Assembly: GCA_016871275.1 (NCBI GenBank)
Contig: VFZG01000006.1
Span: 1-64,000 of the forward strand
Reading direction: 5' to 3'
Length of the DNA stretch: 64,000 bases
Origin: Acidimicrobiia bacterium
GTDB lineage: Bacteria > Acidobacteriota > Vicinamibacteria > Vicinamibacterales > UBA2999
Part shown: piece by piece, positions 44,984 to 55,407 of the stretch
Layout of the letters: each line of letters begins with the position of its first letter
Numbering within the stretch: position 1 is the first letter of the stretch
Program-made: the position numbers and the translations under genes
The notes under the pieces: generated by a model
The model's input: the letters and a program-made list of their open reading frames with translations, nothing else
What the model was told of the DNA's origin: nothing
Databases searched by the model: none

Positions 44984-45289
44984 ATGGTGGTCAAGATCAT
45001 GCCGAACGACAAGAACAATTCGCCGCAGGGCAAGCTCGCCGATGTCGAAATGCACTTCACAGACGGCGCCATGGCAGGGCTGCGGCTGCTCGGCTTCGCG
45101 GTATGGGAGAAGAAGAACGGCACGGGCCGAAGCGTCACGTTGCCGTCGCGCCCGTATTCGGTGAACGGGGAGCGGCGCAATTTCTCGCTGCTTCGGCCGG
45201 TGACCGACCCGAAGGCGCAGGACCGAATCCGGGACCTGGTGCTCCAGGCCTACGCCGACTTCGAGTCGCAGGCGGCGCTGGCCAGCTAG
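44984..45289 (+). CDS. Small SpoVG-like protein
   Basis: 101 aa, soluble. The order of motifs, DVEMHFTDGAMAGLRLLGFAVW, then TLPSRPYSVNGERRNFSLLRPV, then DRIRDLVLQAYADFE, resembles SpoVG (a small nucleic-acid-binding regulator), whose core is ...[20 protein letters not shown]...IQDAVLNEY. Identity is low, so this is a distant proposal. GGAG lies about 10 nt before the ATG. Its stop (TAG 45287-45289) overlaps the stop of the convergent radical SAM gene within one CTAG. Whether it binds DNA or RNA is unknown. Confidence 0.6.
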   Translation: MVVKIMPNDKNNSPQGKLADVEMHFTDGAMAGLRLLGFAVWEKKNGTGRSVTLPSRPYSVNGERRNFSLLRPVTDPKAQDRIRDLVLQAYADFESQAALAS

Positions 45290-47028
45290 TTCAGCACCGG
45301 CAGGAGCCGGGCGTTCTCCTGGGCGCGCTTCGGGGGTAGTGTCCACTCGGCGCGCGTGCTCTTCTCGAACTCGGCGCGGAAGAACGGCTCCTTCATGCCG
45401 CCGTCGATCACGTTCCACGGCAGCACCGTGTCGTTGGATCGGTCGCGGTAGATGTAGAAGTCGCCGTCCACGCCGGCGTCGGCGACGGCGCGGCGCCACT
45501 GGCCGCCATTGGCTTCGGCGTGTTCGATGGCCGGCGCGATGCGGCGATCGCCAAGCGACAGCAGCGCCTGGTAATAGGAGTGCCGCTCGCTCTTGATGTT
45601 GAAGTAGACGTTGTCGATGCCGGCCACCAGCGTGCGCATGCGCTTCATCCGGCGTTCGATGTCGCCGGATGGCGTCATCGGCAGCCACTGGTAGGCGGTG
45701 CCGGGCTTGGGCACCAGCGGGTTGACGCTGGCGACGATGCGGCCAATGCGGCCGCGGGCGCGGGCATGCTTGAGCATGATGGCGTGCAGCTGCAGGGTGA
45801 GGTCGCGAATCGCAACGAGATCGGCATCCTCTTCCGTCGGCAGGCCGATCATGTAGTAGAGCTTCAAGCTTTCGATGCCGGTCGCGAAGATCAGCTCGGC
45901 GCGGTTGAGGATCTCCTCGTTGGTGATGGTCTTGTTGATCACCCGGCGGAGTCGATCCGACCCGGTCTCGGGGGCAATCGTCAGCGTGCGCTCACCGCTC
46001 TCCCGCAGCAGCGACACGATGGTCGGGGTGAGGTCGTCGAGACGCAGCGAAGCGGGGCTGATCGAATAGCCCATGTCCTTCAAACTGCGGAGGATCTGTT
46101 CGATGTCGGGGTGATCGCACAACGCGATCGACACCAGGCCGGCGCGCGACGAGTGCGCGCGGGCGGCTTGGGCAAGGTCGAGAATCCGTTGGGTGGGAAA
46201 CGCCCGCACCGGCAGGTAGTTGTAGCCGGCCCAGCAGAAGCGGCAGAGGTTGGCGCATCCGCGCACGACTTCAACGAGGAAGCGTGAGCCGAACTCGGTG
46301 TCGGGGGTGAAGATGCTCGTGGACGGTGGATCGATGGCGTCGGTGGTCCTGAGCGCGGCCTTACGAACCACTGGCGGTGCGCCGGTGCCCTCGCGCGGCA
46401 CGAACCGCGCGATCGCGCCATGGGTGTCGTACTCCACGTCGTAGAACGACGGGATGTAGTAGCCGCGATGCTGCGCGAGCCTGCGGAGTTGTTCGCTTCG
46501 AGACGGCGTCTGAAACGCCTCGAGCAAGGCGGGCACCAACGCCTCCCCTTCGCCGGCGGCAATGACGTCGGCAAACGGAGCGAGCGGCTCTGGATTGACG
46601 AAGGTGACGGCGCCGCCGATTACGACCAGCGGATCCGTGTAGTCACGATCCGCGGCCCGTAACGGCACGCCGGCCAGTCGCAACATCGTCAGGACGTTGG
46701 TGTAGTCCCACTCGAACGACACCGAGCAGGCGATGACGTCGAAGTCGGCGACCGGCGTCTGCGACTCGATGGTGACGATGCGGGCGCCTGACTCGCGCAG
46801 CGCGGCGAGCTCCTGTTTCGGAGGCAGGAACGCGCGCTCGCAGACGATGTCGGGCTGATCGTTGAAGAGGCGATAGATCGTCTGGAAGCCGAGGTTCGAC
46901 ATCCCGACGAAATAGGTATTGGGAAAGATCAATGCGACGCGGAGGCGATTGGCGTGCGGCTTGCGCACGTAACCGACCTCACGCGAAAGGATGTGCTGTG
47001 CGGCTTCTTGCAGGTGCCGGGACTTCAT
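45286..47028 (-). CDS. B12-binding-domain radical SAM protein (TIGR03960-like)
   Basis: 580 aa. The N-terminal cobalamin-binding-like region (VALIFPNTYFVGMSNLGFQTIYRLFN, VADFDVIACSVSFEWDYTNVLTML) precedes the radical SAM core: VVRGCANLCRFCWAGYNYLP (CxxxCxxC) and APETGSDRLRRVINK. Similar proteins are annotated only as uncharacterised radical SAM proteins, often beside a DUF2344 partner; none is in this window. The start is ATG at 47028, just after a conserved hairpin leader. The first ~100 codons are repeated as fragments at 49158-49383 and 53730-54031. Reaction and substrate unknown. Confidence 0.87.
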   Translation of the reverse strand: MKSRHLQEAAQHILSREVGYVRKPHANRLRVALIFPNTYFVGMSNLGFQTIYRLFNDQPDIVCERAFLPPKQELAALRESGARIVTIESQTPVADFDVIACSVSFEWDYTNVLTMLRLAGVPLRAADRDYTDPLVVIGGAVTFVNPEPLAPFADVIAAGEGEALVPALLEAFQTPSRSEQLRRLAQHRGYYIPSFYDVEYDTHGAIARFVPREGTGAPPVVRKAALRTTDAIDPPSTSIFTPDTEFGSRFLVEVVRGCANLCRFCWAGYNYLPVRAFPTQRILDLAQAARAHSSRAGLVSIALCDHPDIEQILRSLKDMGYSISPASLRLDDLTPTIVSLLRESGERTLTIAPETGSDRLRRVINKTITNEEILNRAELIFATGIESLKLYYMIGLPTEEDADLVAIRDLTLQLHAIMLKHARARGRIGRIVASVNPLVPKPGTAYQWLPMTPSGDIERRMKRMRTLVAGIDNVYFNIKSERHSYYQALLSLGDRRIAPAIEHAEANGGQWRRAVADAGVDGDFYIYRDRSNDTVLPWNVIDGGMKEPFFRAEFEKSTRAEWTLPPKRAQENARLLPVLN

Positions 47029-47141
47029 TCAGGTCCCAGGGGGTCATCGAGCTGTGTTTACGCCGGCGGCGCTCGCGGCTCCCCTGGATATCCCTACTCT
47101 ATCAGCCCTCATTGCGGCGCAGGAACGCCGGCACGTCCAGG
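46741..47141. repeat. Repeat copy A: 5' end of the radical SAM gene, spacer and 3' end of ftsZ
   Basis: This 401-nt stretch matches copy C at 53730-54124, at roughly 95% by eye. It includes the first ~96 codons of the intact radical SAM gene (minus strand), the spacer, and the last ~12 codons of ftsZ ([10 protein letters not shown]), which are out of place here because ftsZ itself ends at 54085. Beyond 47141 the similarity stops abruptly. It forms the left border of the mosaic insertion. Confidence 0.85.
47031..47088 (-). promoter_or_regulatory. Structured leader in front of the radical SAM gene
   Basis: On the minus strand the leader folds as P1 CCAGGGG / CCCCTGG, P2 GAGC / GCTC and P3 CGCC / GGCG, with the internal strand TAAACACA. 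The 3' arm of P1 ends in TGGGA, a possible ribosome binding site 7-10 nt before the ATG, so pairing could block translation. The core is nearly identical in the three copies (also 49386-49443 and 54015-54071), while flanking bases differ. It does not match the cobalamin riboswitch pattern I know. Confidence 0.45.
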
Positions 47142-47423
47142 CCGGCTGAGCCGCTAGGCGCTGCGGCCGCGGGTCAACCACCCCTGCCGTTCGAGGCCGG
47201 CGACGATTGCGTGGCTGGAGACGACTACTGACATCGCCCTGTTGCATGCCGGAGCCAGGCCGGAGCCTGCACTGTGAGCTGACCTGCGCTGGCCCTGTGC
47301 GCTGGGTCCGAGAACGGGCCTTCCGATAACTGGGAGGCCGCTGATACGGCCTATCGTCTGCGCCGCGGTGAACGACCAGGTGCACGAGGCCACGGCGGTG
47401 AGAATCCGGTCCGCCCGCTTCGT
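47142..47423. other. Mosaic junction without an intact gene
   Basis: Between repeat copy A and the GT-C gene lie pieces of unrelated sequence: about 147 nt with a plus-strand frame PPLPFEAGDDCVAGDDY (unrecognised), the 72-nt palindromic element, then a plus-strand C-terminal fragment AAVNDQVHEATAVRIRSARFV ending at TAG 47425-47427. Nothing here looks complete. The pattern is that of repeated insertion and deletion. Confidence 0.55.
47289..47360. repeat. 72-nt structured palindromic element, copy 1
   Basis: Differs from the copy at 53658-53729 at three positions. It contains stem GGCCC / GGGCC, stem GGCCTTCC / GGGAGGCC (one G-T pair, 7-nt loop) and stem GGCCG / CGGCC. Sequences on either side differ completely between copies, so its ends are well defined. 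The right 26 nt recur at 49131-49156. Confidence 0.75.
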
Positions 47424-49085
47424 CTAGAACCGATAAATGCCGACCTCGCCGTCGCGGAACACTTCGCGCGATGCGTCGATCGGGACCAACGGCGCGTGGT
47501 CGAGTCCGCGCATCATGACCTCTGCGGCTCGATCCCGCTTGACGACATAGCGGAACCCATAGCGGCGGGCCGCTTCCTCCCAGGACCCGTCGAGGATGAG
47601 GCGCCTCAGTTCGAGGTCCGCCTGATCGACCGACGTCGGCGTTCTTGAGATGTAGCCGAAGCCGATCGGCTGCTGGTGCACGGTCTGATAGTAGAGCGCC
47701 TGAGGGCCGTTGGACGCCAGGTCGAGCACCGCCCCGGGCGGCAGGTTTTTCAGCGCGCGGGCGTAGGCCGGCACGGCGACGTCGGTCACCCGCTGCGGGT
47801 AGGGGAGGTACTCGAAGGCGATCGCCGCGAGCGCGATCGTGGCGACGGCCATTCGCCGCTTCGCGTTGAGCGCCACCCAACCGGCGGCGGCCAGCACCGC
47901 GGCAGCCAGTTGCACCATCACCATCATGCGGACCGGAACACCGGCCAGCCGCCACGGCGGAAAGATCAGCCACAAGATGGCGTACGGCAGCACCAGCGGG
48001 TTGACATCGTCCCGGCCGAACATCGCAATGGTGCCGGCTGAGACTTCGTGGCCCGCGATCTTGAGATTGGGGCCGAGCGCCATCACGCCGAAGAACAGAA
48101 TCACGATCAGCCAGTAGCCGCCGTCCTTCAGCGCCACCTGGGATCGGCGGCGCCATCCGTAGACGGCCAGCGCGATCACCGACCAGCCAATGTGCACGCT
48201 GGCTTCAGTCACGTACCGCGCGAGCGACTGCCACAGTGGCACCCAGTCGCGGAATCGCCAGTAGTAGCCCCACACGAACGGCGACAGCACGTCCATCGAC
48301 AGGTCACGCGGCGAGTGCGTGCCGAAGAACGGGTCGGTGGCGTGCGAGTAGACCAGCGTGCCGAGCAGGACGCCGGATGTGGCCAGCGTCGGCAGGACGA
48401 AGCCGCCCAGCATCGGTGCGGGCGACGGCGTCAGCAGGAACCATGGATCGCGTGCCGACCACGCGCGCCACACGACCAACAACACGCCGCCGATGACGCA
48501 GTAGGCAAAGTAGTAGAGATCGCACAGCAACACGAGCAGCAGGACGAATGCCGAGGCGGCGGCCCGGCCGGTGGTCCGCTGGTCGCAGAACCGGATCCAG
48601 CACAGCACGAACAGTGGGATCCATTGCAGGGCCGTCAACTGCAGGTGTCCGTCGGCGTGCATGAAATGGAAACTCGAGAACGTGAACAGCGCGCCGCCGA
48701 GCAGGCTGCCGCCGTACGATGCTGTCAGGTGGCGGCAGAGCGCGAATGCGGTCACGCCCGCGGCGACGAACGAGAACACGACGATCGCGTTGTAGGTCTG
48801 CACCGTCGTCAGCACCGGCAGCAACACGATGGCGATCAGCCCATTGAACGGGTTCAGCGTGTGCCCGACCAGCGTCGTCCCACCGGGGTGATGCAGGTAG
48901 GTGGTGTACCACGGCAGCTCGTGCAGCTCGCGCACGGCCTTGTTGACCCACCAGAGGTTCCAGATGTTCTGATAGCCGTCGGCTCCGCCGAAATAGAACG
49001 CGGTGGAGAATGCCGCCAGCAAGTGCGGATTGAGCGCGAAGAACAGCGCCAGATACAGCGTGGCGGGTACGACGACCGTCCGCAT
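47424..49085 (-). CDS. Multi-spanning GT-C-like glycosyltransferase/membrane protein
   Basis: About 553 aa with roughly 11-13 membrane helices. After the first helix (VVVPATLYLALFFAL) an acidic loop (FGGADGYQNIWNLWW) precedes LPWYTTYLHHPGG; acidic loops there are typical of GT-C lipid-linked sugar transferases. The C-terminal ~110 residues (NLPPGAVLDLASNGPQ, RYGFRYVVKRDR) form a soluble domain. The ATG at 49085 is preferred: the longer frame to 49169 begins inside repeat B and would add MADFETIGRVSGL from the repeat. Probably modifies exported glycans or lipids. It lies between repeat copies A and B. Confidence 0.75.
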   Translation of the reverse strand: MRTVVVPATLYLALFFALNPHLLAAFSTAFYFGGADGYQNIWNLWWVNKAVRELHELPWYTTYLHHPGGTTLVGHTLNPFNGLIAIVLLPVLTTVQTYNAIVVFSFVAAGVTAFALCRHLTASYGGSLLGGALFTFSSFHFMHADGHLQLTALQWIPLFVLCWIRFCDQRTTGRAAASAFVLLLVLLCDLYYFAYCVIGGVLLVVWRAWSARDPWFLLTPSPAPMLGGFVLPTLATSGVLLGTLVYSHATDPFFGTHSPRDLSMDVLSPFVWGYYWRFRDWVPLWQSLARYVTEASVHIGWSVIALAVYGWRRRSQVALKDGGYWLIVILFFGVMALGPNLKIAGHEVSAGTIAMFGRDDVNPLVLPYAILWLIFPPWRLAGVPVRMMVMVQLAAAVLAAAGWVALNAKRRMAVATIALAAIAFEYLPYPQRVTDVAVPAYARALKNLPPGAVLDLASNGPQALYYQTVHQQPIGFGYISRTPTSVDQADLELRRLILDGSWEEAARRYGFRYVVKRDRAAEVMMRGLDHAPLVPIDASREVFRDGEVGIYRF

Positions 49086-49130
49086 GATGCCCGGTAGCGG
49101 CGGCTGGCGCAGACTCGGCGGATCCGCAGC

Positions 49131-49465
49131 GAGGCCGCTGACACGGCCTATCGTCTCGAAATCAGCCACCGGCGTCTGCGACTCGAGCGTGACGATGCGC
49201 GTGCCCCGGCTTGCTCGTTGAAGAGGCGGTAGATCGTCTGGAAGCCGAGGTTCTATATCCCGACGAAATAGCTATTGGGAAGATCAGTGCGACACGAAGG
49301 CGGTTGGCGCAGGGCTGGCGCACGTAACCGACCTCACCCGAAAGGATGTGCTGTGCGGCTTCTTGCAGGTGCCGGGACTTCATTCAGGTCCCAGGGGGAA
49401 ATCGAGCTGTGTTTACGCCGGCGGCGCTCGCGGCTCCCCTGGATAGCCCTACTGTATCAGCCCTT
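49131..49465. repeat. Repeat copy B: half palindromic element plus degenerate radical SAM 5' fragment and leader
   Basis: Begins with the last 26 nt of the 72-nt element, then 308 nt matching the radical SAM 5' end and its leader. There is an internal deletion of about 85 nt after GTGACGATGCG, plus frame-breaking changes. The ATG (49383) is kept, but the frame soon fails. The match ends at TATCAGCCCT (49464), before the ftsZ tail seen in copies A and C. The 70 nt that follow are unrecognised. Confidence 0.85.
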
Positions 49466-49537
49466 TGTGCCTTCCGGGCCTGCCGCGGCCCGAGCGGCGA
49501 GGAGCGTCGCCAGCGTTTTCGCAGGATCGATCGAAAC

Positions 49538-49675
49538 ATGAGATCCTTTTTCGATGTCGGACTGTACGAGCTGGAACCATCAGACACACTTCGCCGTGAG
49601 GAGCGCGTGAATCTGGAAGGTCTCACCATCGCGAACCGACATCTGCGCGATGTGCTGGTGGCGAAGGGATATTAG
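49538..49675 (+). pseudogene. C-terminal fragment of an enterochelin-esterase-like hydrolase
   Basis: The frame MRSFFDVGLYELEPSDTL ... ANRHLRDVLVAKGY resembles the segment of esterase-D / enterochelin-esterase-like proteins that precedes the catalytic histidine. The expected continuation (V-x-Y-x-E-F-x-G-G-H) is missing: a TAG follows KGY directly, and the MFS gene starts 2 nt later. The N-terminal two-thirds, with the nucleophile, are absent. A remnant, not a working enzyme. Confidence 0.6.
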
Positions 49676-49677
49676 CC

Positions 49678-51180
49678 ATGCCCGACCTCCTCTCCCGCGA
49701 GCGCATCATCGCGCCGCCCGGATTCAATCGCTGGCTCGTTCCACCCGCGGCGCTCGCCATTCATCTCTCGATTGGCATGGCGTACGGCTTCAGCGTGTTC
49801 TGGCTGCCGCTCAGCCGCGCGATTGGGATCACGCAGTCGGCGCCCGATGACTGGAAGATCAGCACGCTCGGTTGGATGTATACGCTGTTCTTCGTGATGC
49901 TCGGCTCCTCGGCGGCCATGTTCGGCCCGTGGGTCGAGCGCGAAGGACCGCGAAAAGCGGGCGTCGTGGCCGCGGCCTGCTGGGGCGGCGGATTCATGCT
50001 GGCGGCGCTCGGCGTGTATCTCCATCAGGTGTGGCTGCTGTGGGTGGGCGCCGGCGTCATCGGCGGATGCGGACTCGGGCTCGGCTACATCTCACCGGTG
50101 TCCACGCTCATCAAGTGGTTCCCGGACCGACGCGGGATGGCGACCGGACTCGCGATCATGGGGTTCGGCGGCGGCGCGATGATCGGCACGCCGCTCGCCG
50201 ACGTGCTGATGAAGCGCTTTGCGACGCCGACGTCCGTCGGCGTGTGGCAGACCTTTCTCGTCATGGGACTGCTCTACGCCGTCGCGATGCTGGCCGGCGC
50301 GTTCGCATATCGTCTTCCGGCGCCGGCGTGGAAACCTGCCGGCTGGACACCGCCCGCCGAACCGACGTCGGACGGCACCGCGCGCTCCGTTCCCGTGCAG
50401 GTGGCGTGGCAAACGAAACAGTTCTGGCTGCTGTGGGGCGTGTTGTGCCTGAATGTCAGCGCCGGCATCGGCATTCTCGGCATGGCCTCGCCGATGATTC
50501 AGGAAGTGTTCAAAGGCCGCGTCGACGCGTCGGCCGCGGCCGGCTTCGCCGGTCTCCTCAGCCTCTTCAACATCGGCGGAAGAATTTTCTGGGCGTCGCT
50601 CTCGGATCGCATCGGCCGCAAACCGACCTACACCGTCTTCTTCATCCTCGGCATGTTGCTGTATGCCTCGGTGCCGACGGCTGGATCAACCGGCAGTCTC
50701 CTGCTCTTCGTCGCGATCTTTTCAATCATCCTGACGATGTACGGCGGCGGGTTCGCGACGATTCCTGCGTATCTCGCCGATCTGTTTGGCGTGCAGCACG
50801 TGAGCGCGATTCACGGACGTCTGCTGACGGCCTGGTCCACCGCCGGCATTCTCGGACCGGTCCTCATCAACTACCTCCGCGAATTCCAGATCTCGCGCGG
50901 CATCGCCGCATCCGACGCCTACACGTTCACGATGTACGTGCTGGTGGGACTGCTCGGCGTCGGACTGGTCTGCAACATGGCGGTGACACCAGTGTCGCGC
51001 GACCTCTTCACCCTCACGGCAACTGTCGTGCGGCGAGATGGAGCGTCAGCGGCCGCCGTTGCGGTCGATGCGCCGCAAGGGCACTGGGCCACCGTCGCGA
51101 TCGCCTGGACGCTCGCCGGCGTTCCGCTCGCGTGGGGCGTCTTCCGCACGCTCACGCTCGCGGCTCAGATGTTCCGCTGA
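49678..51180 (+). CDS. MFS transporter, oxalate/formate antiporter (OFA) type
   Basis: 500 aa with 12 predicted membrane helices. FNRWLVPPAALAIHLSIGMAYGFSVFWLPL at the N-terminus, GGCGLGLGYISPVSTLIKWFPDRRGMATG and IGGRIFWASLSDRIGRKPTYTVF (the A-like loop DRxGRK) are typical of the OFA family. Family members exchange oxalate, formate or other monocarboxylates. The gene is intact and lies between repeat copies B and C, preceded by an esterase fragment. No linked decarboxylase is seen, so the substrate is open. Confidence 0.88.
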   Translation: MPDLLSRERIIAPPGFNRWLVPPAALAIHLSIGMAYGFSVFWLPLSRAIGITQSAPDDWKISTLGWMYTLFFVMLGSSAAMFGPWVEREGPRKAGVVAAACWGGGFMLAALGVYLHQVWLLWVGAGVIGGCGLGLGYISPVSTLIKWFPDRRGMATGLAIMGFGGGAMIGTPLADVLMKRFATPTSVGVWQTFLVMGLLYAVAMLAGAFAYRLPAPAWKPAGWTPPAEPTSDGTARSVPVQVAWQTKQFWLLWGVLCLNVSAGIGILGMASPMIQEVFKGRVDASAAAGFAGLLSLFNIGGRIFWASLSDRIGRKPTYTVFFILGMLLYASVPTAGSTGSLLLFVAIFSIILTMYGGGFATIPAYLADLFGVQHVSAIHGRLLTAWSTAGILGPVLINYLREFQISRGIAASDAYTFTMYVLVGLLGVGLVCNMAVTPVSRDLFTLTATVVRRDGASAAAVAVDAPQGHWATVAIAWTLAGVPLAWGVFRTLTLAAQMFR

Positions 51181-51186
51181 CGCCGC

Positions 51187-51400
51187 TCAGAGGACCTTCG
51201 GGTCGAGGCCGGCGATGGTGAGGTCGACGGCGCTCGCGCGACTGCTCGATGAAACCGTCAGACGGTCGACCGGTCTCCGGGCGAAGCGACGCGATCAGCG
51301 ACGCGCTTGTCTGTCCGGCGGCGGCCGTGGCCCGCTGCTGCTTCATGTACTCGGTCACCGCGTACTGAGACGCATCGATCGGACTCATCGCCATCGTCAA
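51187..51400 (-). pseudogene. Decayed C-terminal gene fragment, unrecognised
   Basis: On the minus strand, MSPIDASQYAVTEYMKQQ from about 51394 is protein-like for some 45 codons. After an apparent frame change near 51270 it continues as VDRLTVSSSSRASAVDLTIAGL and ends DPKVL at the stop 51187-51189, seven nt from the MFS stop. I do not recognise the family. The rest of the 390-nt gap up to 51570 shows a GCCGGC hairpin (51408-51425) and no other gene. Confidence 0.35.
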
Positions 51401-51570
51401 CTGATAGGGGCCGCCGGCGCCTTGCCGGCGCTTTCAAAAGACGGCAGTCGCGTCCAGGTCCAGGGCTTCCTCCGGCCGACCGCGATTGTGGCGCCGCGCA
51501 TCTTCCGTATCGGCGTTGTCTGCGGTTTCGGATTGCGCCGAATCCCGTCGTGTGTTCTGCTGAACACAAC

Positions 51571-52875
51571 GTGCTTCGACTGGCCCAGATCTGGCGAGTG
51601 ACGCTCGTCGCCGCCGTGATGATCGGTCTGGCGACGTTCACCGCATTCGCCCAAGCGCCCAACACCACGTCACTCGATCGGCCGTTGCGCGTGTTCATCG
51701 ATTGTCGCGGGCCAGGCTGCGATCAGGCATTCTTCCGTACCGAGCTGGCGTGGATTGACCACGTGCGCGACCAGATGGACGCTGACGTGCACGTGCTGGT
51801 CACCGCCCAGGGGACGGGCGGCGGGGGCACGGAATATACGCTTCGCTTCATCGGTCAAAGCGGCTGGCAGGGACAAGAGGACACCTTCACACGCGCGACC
51901 GAGGCCGGTGGCACCGACGACGACCGGCGGCGCGCACTGGTCCAAGCCTTTGGTCTCGGGCTGGCGCGATTTGCGGCGGTCACGCCTGTCGGTCTGCAAC
52001 TGCGCATTGCCTCGCCGGCCGCGATCACCGCTCCGCTCCAGACAGTCGCCAAGGCCGACGGGTGGAACTTCTGGGTGTTCAGGACCAATCTCAATCTCAA
52101 CCTGAACGGGGAACAGAGCAACAGCTCCAGAAGCTTCAACGTCAATCAGTCGGCCACCCGCACGACCGCCGAATGGAAGGTCAATTTCAACGCCGGCGTC
52201 AACCGCAGCACCAATGCATACGAGCTGTCGAGCGGCAACTTCGTCACCACCCGGCGCGGCTGGAACGTCAACGGCCTGACCGTCAAGAGCCTCAACGATC
52301 ACTGGTCCGTGGCGCTGAAAGGCGGGGCGTCACGCTCGACCTTCCTGAATCAGAAACTCGCGGCCCGCTTCGCTCCTGGTGTCGAATTCAACGTGTTCCC
52401 GTACGCGCAGTCAACCTCCCGCACGCTCATCCTGCAATGGACCGTCGGCCCCAACCGGTTCGTCTATGACGAGCCCACGATCTACGGCAAGCTGGACGAG
52501 AGTCGCTGGGAACAGACAGCGCTGGCGCAGCTGAACCTGCGGCAGCCGTTCGGGACGGTCGGGTTGGCGACCGAGATCGCCAGCTATCTCGACCACCCGG
52601 ACCACTACCGGTTCGTGTTCAATGCCGATACCGAGTTTCGTGTTTCCCGCGGGCTGACGCTCCGGCTGGATGGCAACTACCAGGTGCTGCACGATCAGCT
52701 GTACTTACGCCGTGGCACATCGACCGACGAAGAAATCATCGCGCGGCAGCGCCAACTGCAGACCTCGTATCGATATTTGGTCTCGATCGGCCTGACCTAT
52801 CGCTTCGGCTCGATCAACAACAACGTCGTCAACCCGCGCTTCGGCGGCGGACCAGGCGGCGGCTTCCCGTTCTGA
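51571..52875 (+). CDS. Two-domain exported protein with outer-membrane barrel
   Basis: 434 aa from GTG 51571, with a signal peptide (VTLVAAVMIGLATFTAFAQA). Residues about 35-150 form a compact domain (LRVFIDCRGPGCDQAFFRTE, ADVHVLVTAQGTGGGGTEYT, DDDRRRALVQAFGLGLARFA) with a C-x5-C pair that could be disulphide-bonded. The remainder alternates polar and hydrophobic residues (FWVFRTNLNLNLNGEQSNSS, YRYLVSIGLTYRFG) and ends in phenylalanine, as outer-membrane barrels do. Similar proteins occur in Acidobacteriota and Gemmatimonadota without known function. It lies inside the repeat-bounded region. Confidence 0.65.
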   Translation: MLRLAQIWRVTLVAAVMIGLATFTAFAQAPNTTSLDRPLRVFIDCRGPGCDQAFFRTELAWIDHVRDQMDADVHVLVTAQGTGGGGTEYTLRFIGQSGWQGQEDTFTRATEAGGTDDDRRRALVQAFGLGLARFAAVTPVGLQLRIASPAAITAPLQTVAKADGWNFWVFRTNLNLNLNGEQSNSSRSFNVNQSATRTTAEWKVNFNAGVNRSTNAYELSSGNFVTTRRGWNVNGLTVKSLNDHWSVALKGGASRSTFLNQKLAARFAPGVEFNVFPYAQSTSRTLILQWTVGPNRFVYDEPTIYGKLDESRWEQTALAQLNLRQPFGTVGLATEIASYLDHPDHYRFVFNADTEFRVSRGLTLRLDGNYQVLHDQLYLRRGTSTDEEIIARQRQLQTSYRYLVSIGLTYRFGSINNNVVNPRFGGGPGGGFPF

Positions 52876-53008
52876 CACGCCTCCCGCCGTCGCGTGCGAT
52901 GATACGCTCGACCTCGATGATCCGTTCCTGCGTCGGCGTTGACGCGGCCGTCCCGATCACGGCTGGGTGAATGGCTCGACCAGCCCTTACTCGCACGAGG
53001 AGAACCGC

Positions 53009-53500
53009 ATGCTGCAGCACGTCATCTTCGCCTACGGATTCAATTTGCACATGGCGAAGCGCCTGGTCGGCGATCTCGCGGCCGATCAGATGTGCCAGCA
53101 GCCGCACGGTGTCGTCAATCACCCGGCGTGGAGCCTGGGGCACCTCGCCGCAGCGTCTGCCATGCTGCTGAGGACTCTGGGCCACGACGCCTCGCTGCCA
53201 CCGGCGTGGGGAGACGTCTTCAAGACGGGGGGAATACCGGTCGGCGATCCGTCGCTGTTCCCGTCCAAGGCCGAACTCCTCGACACGCTGGAATCGCTGC
53301 ACGGCCGCGTGGCTGCGGCCGTTGCCGCAGCCGACGCCGCCACGTTCGCCGCGCCGAATCCCAGCGAGTCGATGCGCAAGTACTTCCCGACGTTGGGCGA
53401 CATGGCCGTGTTCATGATGACGTCGCACGAGACGGATCACCTGGGCCAGCTGGCCGCATGGCGAAGAGCCATGGGGCTGGCGGCGCCAGGCACCGTGTAG
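53009..53500 (+). CDS. DinB-like four-helix metal-binding protein
   Basis: 163 aa. The DinB/DUF664 pattern is visible: NLHMAKRLVGDL in helix 1, VNHPAWSLGHLA (first His) and MTSHETDHLGQLAAWRR (the H-x3-H pair), giving the three-histidine metal site. Such proteins act as thiol-dependent transferases or remain uncharacterised. ATG 53009 with GAGGAG 7 nt upstream is a better start than GTG 52967. Confidence 0.8.
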   Translation: MLQHVIFAYGFNLHMAKRLVGDLAADQMCQQPHGVVNHPAWSLGHLAAASAMLLRTLGHDASLPPAWGDVFKTGGIPVGDPSLFPSKAELLDTLESLHGRVAAAVAAADAATFAAPNPSESMRKYFPTLGDMAVFMMTSHETDHLGQLAAWRRAMGLAAPGTV

Positions 53501-53509
53501 TGCCGGACA

Positions 53510-53656
53510 GTGCGAGCAGCAGGCCAAGGTGCCGAGGTCTCCGAGTGTCAGTCCTGCCATGAGCCTGGCTCGATTGCGCCCATGTTGCTCATCATCTACA
53601 AGGACACCCGACCCTGGGCGCGTTCCATTCGGCAGCGGGTGTCGATGCGGCAGATG
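53510..53656 (+). pseudogene. Fragment of a haem c domain
   Basis: In frame from 53510: EVSECQSCHEPGSIAPMLLI followed by YKDTRPWARSIRQRVSMRQM. The CxxCH and spacing match the cytochrome domain of the protein at 11117-12565 (NCTSCHRPGDIAPMSLL ... RPWAKSI). The frame is cut exactly where the 72-nt element begins, before the expected PPWH, and no upstream signal peptide is present. A truncated remnant. Confidence 0.7.
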
Positions 53657-53657
53657 T

Positions 53658-53729
53658 CTGGCCCTGTGCGCTGGGTCCGAGAACAGGCCTTCCGTTAACT
53701 GGGAGGCCGCTAATACGGCCTATCGTCTG
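53658..53729. repeat. 72-nt structured palindromic element, copy 2
   Basis: 69 of 72 bases match copy 1 at 47289-47360. The changes fall in loops or single-stranded parts (GATAACT to GTTAACT; CTGATA to CTAATA), leaving the main stems intact. It joins a haem c fragment on the left to the radical SAM 5' fragment on the right. Confidence 0.75.
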
Positions 53730-54124
53730 GAAGTCAGCCACCGGCGTCTGCGATTCGATGGTGACGATGCGGGCGCCTGACTGGCGCAGCGCGGCGAGCT
53801 CCTGTTTCGGAGGCAGGAACGCGCGCTCGCAGACGATGTCGGGCTGATCGTTGAAGAGGCGATAGATCGTCTGGCAGCCGAGGTTCGACATCCCGACGAA
53901 ATAGCTACTGCGAAAGATCGACGCGGAGGCGATTGGCGTGCTTCTGGCGCACGTAACCGACCTCACGCGAAAGGATGTGCTGTGCGGCTTCTTGCTGGTG
54001 CCGGGACTTTCTTCAGGTCCCAGGGGGCATCGAGCTGTGTTTACGCCGGCGGCGCTCGCGGCTCCCCTGGATTTTCCTACTGTATCAGCCCTCGTTGCGG
54101 CGCAGGAACGCCGGCACGTCCAGG
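53730..54124. repeat. Repeat copy C: radical SAM 5' fragment, leader and ftsZ 3' end at the native position
   Basis: The segment continues without a break into ftsZ (ending 54085), so this is the original site. The radical SAM portion is dead: the ATG is changed (GAATGA to GAAGAAA context, near 54011), and the frame is cut after about 100 codons at the palindromic element. The leader hairpin core remains intact at 54015-54071. Confidence 0.85.
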
Positions 54125-55407
54125 TCGAGATTGAGGTCGAAGTCGCCCGGCGCGGCCGCATCGCCCATCGGCGGGTCCCCGGGGTTGTGTCCGACGGCGA
54201 TCGCTCTGGGGGCGGCCGTGGGGTCCCCGACGCGCGGACCGTGCGCGTTGGGGTGGAGCGGCATTTCAATCGGCGGACGGCGCGTGATCGACGGCAGGAT
54301 GCCGGCCCGCGGCGCCAGCGGCGCAGCCGGTTCGCTGGCGCGCAACTGTGACATGTAGGGGGTCATGTCCACGGGCGTATTTGACGGCGCCATTGCCGGG
54401 GTCGAGCGGTCGGTCTTGACGTGATCGAAGCCGGTGGCGATCACCGTGATCTTCACCTTGCTGGCGAGCTTCGGATCGACGACCGCGCCGAAGATGATGT
54501 TGGCGTCTTCGTGCGCCGACTCCTGGATGATGGTCAGCGCTTCGTTGACTTCGAGCAGCGACATGTCGGGGCCGCCGGTGACGTTGATGATCACGCCGCG
54601 CGCGCCCTTGACCGAGGCGTCCTCGAGCAGCGGGCTCGAGATGGCGCGATTGGCGGCATCGACCGAGCGCGTCGTGCCCTCGGCGATGGCGGTGCCCATC
54701 ATCGCCACGCCCATGCCCGACATGATCGTCTTCACGTCGGCGAAGTCGAGGTTGATGAGGCCGGGCACCAGGATCAGGTCGGAGATGCCCTGGATCGCCT
54801 GGCGCAGCACGTCGTCCGCGGTGACGAACGCGTCGAGCATCGAGGTATTGCGGTCGATGACGCTGAGCAGCCGCTCGTTCGGGATGGTGATCACCGTGTC
54901 GACCGCTTCCCGGAGCGACTCGAGTCCGAACTCGGCCTGGCGGGAGCGTTTCTTGCCTTCGAACTTGAACGGCTTGGTGACGACCGCGATGGTCAATGCG
55001 CCGAGCTCGGTGGCGAGGCTGGCGATCACCGGCGCGGCGCCGGTGCCGGTGCCGCCGCCGAGACCGGTGGTGACAAACACCATGTCGGCGCCCGACAACG
55101 CCTGGATCAGGTTGTCGGTGTCTTCGAGCGCCGCCTGGCGTCCGATGTTCGGATCCGCGCCGGCGCCCAGCCCCTTGGTCAGCTTGCCGCCGATCTGGAT
55201 CTTCACCGGCGCCGGGTTGGCCTTGAGCGCCTGTGCGTCGGTGTTGGCGACCATGAACTCGACGCCCGAGATCCCGGCCTGCACCATCCGCGACACGGCA
55301 TTGCTGCCGCCGCCGCCGATGCCAACCACCTTGATTCGCGCGCCTATCCGCGCCTCTTCATCGAGCGTAAGCCGCAGCGATTCGAAGCCGTCTTGATCCG
55401 CCATCAT
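54085..55407 (-). CDS. ftsZ: Cell division protein FtsZ
   Basis: 440 aa; the tubulin-like GTPase that forms the Z ring. GTP-binding [11 protein letters not shown] is near residue 32 and the signature [12 protein letters not shown] at 115-126; the T7 synergy loop is [12 protein letters not shown] Pro-rich linker (about 320-425) ends in the conserved tail [12 protein letters not shown], which binds FtsA and other partners. AGGAGG lies directly before two consecutive ATG codons (55407 and 55404); the second has better spacing. Follows ftsA by 40 nt. Downstream, the radical SAM remnant begins after a short spacer. Confidence 0.97.

Follow-up and report, generated by a model that had tools for sequence, protein, structure and literature searches.

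Organization of the Locus

The window analyzed here is a stretch of 64,000 nucleotides (nt) from contig VFZG01000006.1 of a member of the Vicinamibacterales (assembly GCA_016871275.1). It contains two 72-nt copies and a 26-nt right part of a short repeated element (Table 1), which comparison with related genomes identifies as the right end of a transposon. The copies had been described in a first-pass annotation, made from the letters of the window alone, and both the 72-nt pair (96% identical, with mismatches at element positions 28, 38, and 55; E 1.7e-27 for the second copy in BLAST, far above chance) and the shorter piece were recovered. The mismatches do not all lie outside the stems, as had been stated, since position 28 falls in the proposed stem GGCCC/GGGCC. 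Nor are the flanks unrelated on the right of the copies at 49131 and 53658, where the same radical-SAM (rSAM) 5' fragment occurs, cut at the same nucleotide. The haem c fragment reported at one copy is plausible from its CQSCH sequence, with no match to any Pfam family.

Copy 1 belongs to a longer unit (47178-47359) that comprises a transposase 3' end and the element. The stretch 47178-47231 has 77-81% DNA identity to the transposase 3' ends of three congeners, and 47178-47239 aligned to such ends with E 6e-12 and 8e-11; the distance from the stop codon of this remnant to the element is 57 nt. As the last transposase codons and the stop are followed by the element, copy 1 is, on sequence grounds, the tail of a truncated transposon.

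Table 1. Features of the window around the element copies.
Feature	Position	Strand	Remarks
Right-end element, copy 1	47289..47360	+	E 1.6e-16 to the 58-nt model; core is the last ~58 nt, terminating ...CCTATCGTC at 47358
Right part of element, 26 nt (copy 2)	49131..49156	+	One mismatch; adjoins rSAM fragment
Right-end element, copy 3, 72 nt	53658..53729	+	E 2.9e-18 to the 58-nt model; rSAM fragment directly on the right
Remnant of transposase C-terminus (...PPLPFEAGDDCVAGDDY, then stop)	47178..47231	+	Upstream of copy 1; stop TGA at 47229-47231
Intact radical-SAM gene	45286..47028	-	Holds third 5'-end copy; best NCBIfam match TIGR03960, below model cut-off
45-nt copy of ftsZ 3' end	47100..47144	-	Upstream of intact rSAM gene; 96% to 54083-54127
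Passenger: membrane-protein gene between copies 1 and 2	47424..49169	-	Weak YfhO match (PF09586, E 1.8e-4), below cut-off
Second rSAM 5' fragment and intergenic stretch	49157..49465	-	Same cut nucleotide; right flanks match 88%, abutting element
Passenger: MFS transporter gene	49678..51180	+	PF07690, E 1.2e-32
Passenger: DUF481-like gene	51598..52875	+	
Passenger: DinB-family gene	52967..53500	+	PF12867
Cytochrome-c-like gene fragment (CQSCH)	53510..53657	+	Stops at left end of copy 3
rSAM 5'-end fragment and ftsZ-rSAM intergenic stretch	53730..54084	-	Cut at element; downstream of intact ftsZ
Intact ftsZ	54085-55407		

Distribution and Copy Number

A BLAST search of the genome that contains the window gave 17 matches, most of which share the same right-hand last base. 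A 58-position sequence model was built from 37 copies, and 149 genomes were searched with it; these were assemblies, many of them in hundreds of contigs. The model revealed at least 37 copies in the window genome (G000), all 37 scored candidates being positive, and found the element in 51 of the 149 genomes. Within the genus the distribution is patchy, with 23 copies in G003, 26 in G005, and one in G004, while none were detected by the model in G007 and G008. No match to the element was found in Rfam. The earlier suggestion of mobility is supported in that the element behaves like a mobile one, lying at unrelated gene-fragment junctions in many genomes.

About 8 of the 26 copies in G005 (contigs C25, C36, C81, C99, C107, C112, and C155) lie within ~320 nt of a contig end, far above expectation, which suggests that these sites break assemblies or vary between strains.

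Association with an IS91/ISCR-Type Transposase

The left flanks of three copies in related genomes encode the C-terminus of a transposase of the Y2_Tnp family (PF04986), found in 10 of the 16 genomes tested; a protein query detected the transposase in 58 of the 149 genomes. The transposon in relatives has one gene, which encodes a zinc-ribbon and Y2_Tnp transposase of ~500 amino acids (aa). In a full-length representative (locus L155, genome G118), both Zn_Tnp_IS91 (PF14319, E 1.9e-19) and Y2_Tnp (PF04986, E 5e-24) exceed the Pfam cut-offs. Its best NCBIfam match is ISCR clade Ia (E 4e-102, nearly full length), followed by IS91; the curated cut-offs of both models are unmet (342.4 of 925 bits and 100.8 of 125 bits, respectively).

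In at least 15 loci of relatives, the transposase gene is followed at a distance of 60-450 nt by the element or a diverged form of it, in the same orientation. Complete elements behind transposases terminate at CCTATCGTC, CCTATCGGC, CCTATCATC or a close variant, divergent subfamilies retain CCTATCGTC/GGC/ATC at the terminus position, and several of the transposase loci that lack the element end, or are cut, before that position. A hidden Markov model of the element matched behind transposases, on the same strand and up to the terminus, in G001 (3e-21), G051 (7e-9), G124 (7e-8), and G047 (8.5e-8), more weakly in others, and as a right-truncated match in G006 (1e-16). Because the same terminus follows the transposase on the same strand in so many loci, the element is, by sequence comparison, the right (oriIS-like) end of an IS91/ISCR-type HUH rolling-circle transposon family. 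The copies in the window and dozens of others are, by the same comparison, detached ends, one of them still attached to a transposase tail. This transposase is the enzyme linked to the element, and it was not among the candidates named in the first-pass annotation, a tyrosine recombinase or RAYT.

As to the left end (terIS) of the full-length element, CAGAAACTGC-like upstream repeats are visible, with no boundary fixed. At L105, L159, L160, L164, and other loci, a conserved TGGCACG-N4-TGC-like motif before the transposase start resembles a sigma-54 promoter, and two CAGAAACTGC-like repeats lie further upstream of it. A different Y2_Tnp transposase (~403 aa) is encoded at L105:3708-5810 and L106:955-4475, preceded by one or two tyrosine-recombinase-like genes. 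Finally, G130, G118, G071, and G055 each have several to many copies of another short repeat, which is similar to the right end of the G088/G118 transposon subfamily; other transposon subfamilies, too, seem to have solo ends.

Ends and Polarity of the Element

The right end of the element is fixed to the base, while its left ends vary, the element being 58 nt or 80 nt in length or longer and accompanied by other DNA. Pairwise identity among 30 copies of the 58-nt type rises from 0.23-0.37 before the left end to 0.67-1.0 over the first 14 bases inside; to the right of the right end it is 0.24-0.33. Fifteen copies were classed as an 80-nt type with its own left end ~22 nt further out, and other copies are shorter (26-43 nt) or longer. 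The sequence to the right of the end (65 copies) is random except for a pyrimidine bias at the first base (50 of 65).

Shared flanks are strongly asymmetric. Among 78 copies, shared DNA directly next to the 58-nt core was seen on the left in 45 pairs and next to the right end in two. The 45 include related pairs and 20-23-nt overlaps of the 80-nt form; many of them are 80-nt or related longer forms. Some have clearly longer stretches in common: two copies of G017 share 618 nt, two of G003 share 216 nt, and G000 and G086, which belong to different families, share 129 nt at 98% with the core counted in; the right flanks differ in each case. Such polarity is what IS91-type one-ended transposition would predict.

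The ~620-nt unit of G017 (L075:6691-7316 and L076:6289-6914, 95% identical, at unrelated sites) consists of the element and a passenger reading frame that might be phage-related. In three copies of G000 (L019:15602, L022:6238, and L022:12821) agreement with the main form is limited to the last ~27 nt, and the ~60 nt to the left of these are of a different kind that the three have in common; the terminal 27 nt therefore look like a conserved core. The sequence GCTTGATCCGATCTCGTGGACAT recurs to the left of copies in two genomes (left flanks of L062:1600 and L074:8407; L058:8353) and may be the end of another insertion sequence. A rule that left ends start with CTGR fitted the 58- and 80-nt forms and failed for the longer units.

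Gene Fragments at the Junctions

The flanks of the element are often fragments of conserved genes, cut exactly at its ends. One left flank cut at the element, which looks like dihydroorotase by sequence, shows homology over 743 nt (86%) to a second site of its own genome and over 1489 nt to a different species. A 61-nt piece at 88% is one of the right flanks that start precisely where the element stops. Several of the fragments are additional to a related copy that looks intact and lies at another place in the genome. For two copies of the element, the sequences on its two sides were found on separate contigs in several congeners. On contig G000:C38, an open frame of 1730 aa (L018:1228-6417) with GH39-type and BNR-type (glycosidase-type) domains contains two element copies in frame, as though the element had served to join pieces of separate genes. 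Such junctions can come from capture during transposition as well as from recombination between copies. The element is a simple marker of gene-fragment junctions in these genomes.

Origin of the Solo Ends

We consider it probable that the copies are solo right ends of an IS91/ISCR-type rolling-circle transposon, made by one-ended transposition with capture of DNA on the left side. A transposase supplied in trans would nick at the right end, and replication would peel leftwards until it stops, either soon, giving the minimal elements of 58 and 80 nt, or after entering the neighboring DNA. The right end would then join a new target, the left side bringing the carried-along DNA. Over repeated cycles, and with copies also recombining with one another, runs of gene fragments with solo ends between them would build up, as in the window; transposition itself is deduced here from the sequence patterns.

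Several observations weigh against this explanation. When nine genomes of the genus were searched with the joined flanks of 17 congeneric copies, no relative had the two flanks of any copy side by side, and no clean empty site turned up; six copies from another genus gave the same result. In the window genome no intact transposase was found: with the Y2_Tnp profile nothing exceeded the threshold, and protein searches gave only short remnants, so any activity of the transposon in this genome is conjectural. A scan of genome contigs with one transposase matched only the contig of that transposase. A target tetranucleotide of the IS91 type (GAAC/CAAG) was found neither to the right of the end in the 65 copies nor to the left of the longer units, whose left ends show no consensus. 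In two pairs it is the right flank, not the left, that is shared, and a separate duplication is needed for them; the composition of the 45 left-sharing pairs, given above, also counts here. Finally, no covariation supports the terminal hairpin when 37 copies are aligned, and no consensus structure emerged. With folding also weak (z -0.85 to -2.3), the folded single strand that had been argued from three nested stems gains no support.

The most serious alternative, to which we give an appreciable but clearly smaller chance, accepts the copies as ends of the same transposon and derives the junctions mainly from homologous recombination between dispersed copies, which would combine the left flank of one copy with the right flank of another. 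The lack of clean empty sites speaks in its favor, as do the two copies whose flanking sequences lie at separate loci in several congeners, and most genomic IS801 fragments were judged by the authors of that study to be products of reorganization (PMC3189936). However, several fragments are additional to a related, intact-looking copy at another place in the same genome, and the excess of shared left flanks over shared right flanks is not expected from recombination alone. Recombination between copies may nevertheless have made some of the junctions.

Assembly chimeras, in which short-read repeats made the assembler join unrelated sequences, are an improbable source of the junctions. The crowding of G005 copies at contig ends would fit them, but the core spans no more than 58-80 nt, the copies in the window are not identical and lie inside a 141-kb contig with rSAM flanks diverged by 5-12%, and the transposase linkage recurs in many independent genomes. 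Even less probable are REPIN-like elements moved by a RAYT (Y1) transposase, as proposed in the first-pass annotation: the elements are short, repeated, and partly palindromic, and the genome has five Y1_Tnp genes, yet none of these five loci holds the element within 1.5 kb on either side, the fold is not conserved, and the element sits behind Y2_Tnp transposases. Integron-type attC sites or another tyrosine-recombinase target, with cassettes between the copies, are highly improbable. Some contigs do carry several copies in the same orientation 1-5 kb apart; however, the boundary, read by eye, has no core of the GTTRRRY/RYYYAAC type and copies end in TATCGTC, the intervening DNA often consists of gene fragments instead of single cassettes, and it is another enzyme that is found in physical linkage with this terminus. 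The genome has three phage-integrase-type genes (312, 463, and 394 aa), none on the contigs with listed copies, and no link to the element was shown, so a tyrosine-recombinase target, also suggested earlier, is not evident. A single segmental duplication, to which the threefold ftsZ/rSAM 5' region in the window might point and which would leave no copies beyond those first seen, is practically untenable given the copy numbers, the 51 genomes, and the unrelated sites; duplication is still needed for the rSAM flank common to two copies.

Comparison with Known Systems

One-ended transposition made by a right end was described for IS801, in which it accounted for 26% of insertions in a trap; the right-end fragments measured 229-679 nt, and upstream DNA was captured. 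The process was reported to run from the right end to the left end or to a substitute for the latter (PMC3189936). The family described here resembles IS91/IS801 (PMC3189936) in its zinc-ribbon HUH transposase, single gene, and dissimilar ends, and also, in pattern only, in its fixed right and variable left end, right-end fragments, and upstream capture. It differs in that genomes hold dozens of detached ends, down to 58-80 nt in length, the GAAC/CAAG-type target motif is lacking, and the NCBIfam IS91 model is not passed. The closest transposase family is ISCR, whose ends are named terIS and oriIS and which is thought to move adjacent genes (PMC13393415). However, the score of 342 against the cut-off places the transposase outside clade Ia, the terminus is different, and the ends adjoin fragments of ordinary chromosomal genes.

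Helitrons, compared here by features only and represented by Helraiser (PMC4778049), likewise use an HUH enzyme, carry flanking DNA by read-through, and have a hairpin-like sequence near the 3' end, but they are eukaryotic, their enzyme bears a helicase, and read-through occurs at the 3' side. Bacterial miniature inverted-repeat transposable elements (MITEs) and REPINs are also short, non-autonomous, repeated, and thought to be moved in trans; in contrast to them, no terminal inverted repeats are visible in the present copies, and the linkage is to Y2_Tnp, not to Y1 or DDE enzymes.

Capture of neighboring genes by IS91/ISCR elements is usually discussed for antibiotic resistance. A search of open-licence papers gave no account of solo ends this short in this group. 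In 2016 the evidence for the transduction mechanism was still called circumstantial (PMC4778049). With solo ends that number in the dozens per genome and are patchily distributed among congeners, the present lineage offers many natural events from which polarity and stop signals could be read, passengers being on the left and targets on the right, and it would show the minimum size of such a mobile end. Tentatively, and with the odds rather against it, the detached right ends, down to 58-80 nt, could themselves be transposition units that pick up, move, and fuse host-gene fragments, a bacterial counterpart of Helitron gene capture that leaves fragment arrays and sometimes open chimeric frames.

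Insertion between ftsZ and the Radical-SAM Gene

In all ten relatives compared, ftsZ is directly followed by the radical-SAM gene with no element there (one of these rSAM genes is cut by a contig end); therefore, the DNA from ~47145 to 53729 is an insertion, which has the ftsZ 3' end, the intergenic stretch, and the rSAM 5' end as direct repeats at its borders. The 196-nt block 53730-53925 is a 95% match to 46741-46936. The intact sequence at the corresponding place reads GATGACG/TCGAAGTC, and the junctions of the element copies read CCTATCGTC/TCGAAATC and CCTATCGTC/TGGAAGTC, which fits insertion with an element terminating at GTC. With less confidence than for the solo ends, we suggest that the ~7-kb insert arose by homologous integration of a circle or duplicate, which would carry the element joined to the rSAM 5' end and the ftsZ 3' end; such integration would explain the direct repeats at the borders of the insert and is a conceivable route to the three ftsZ/rSAM copies. 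The cytochrome-c-like fragment inside the insertion has 70-80% DNA matches both in the same genome and in congeners.

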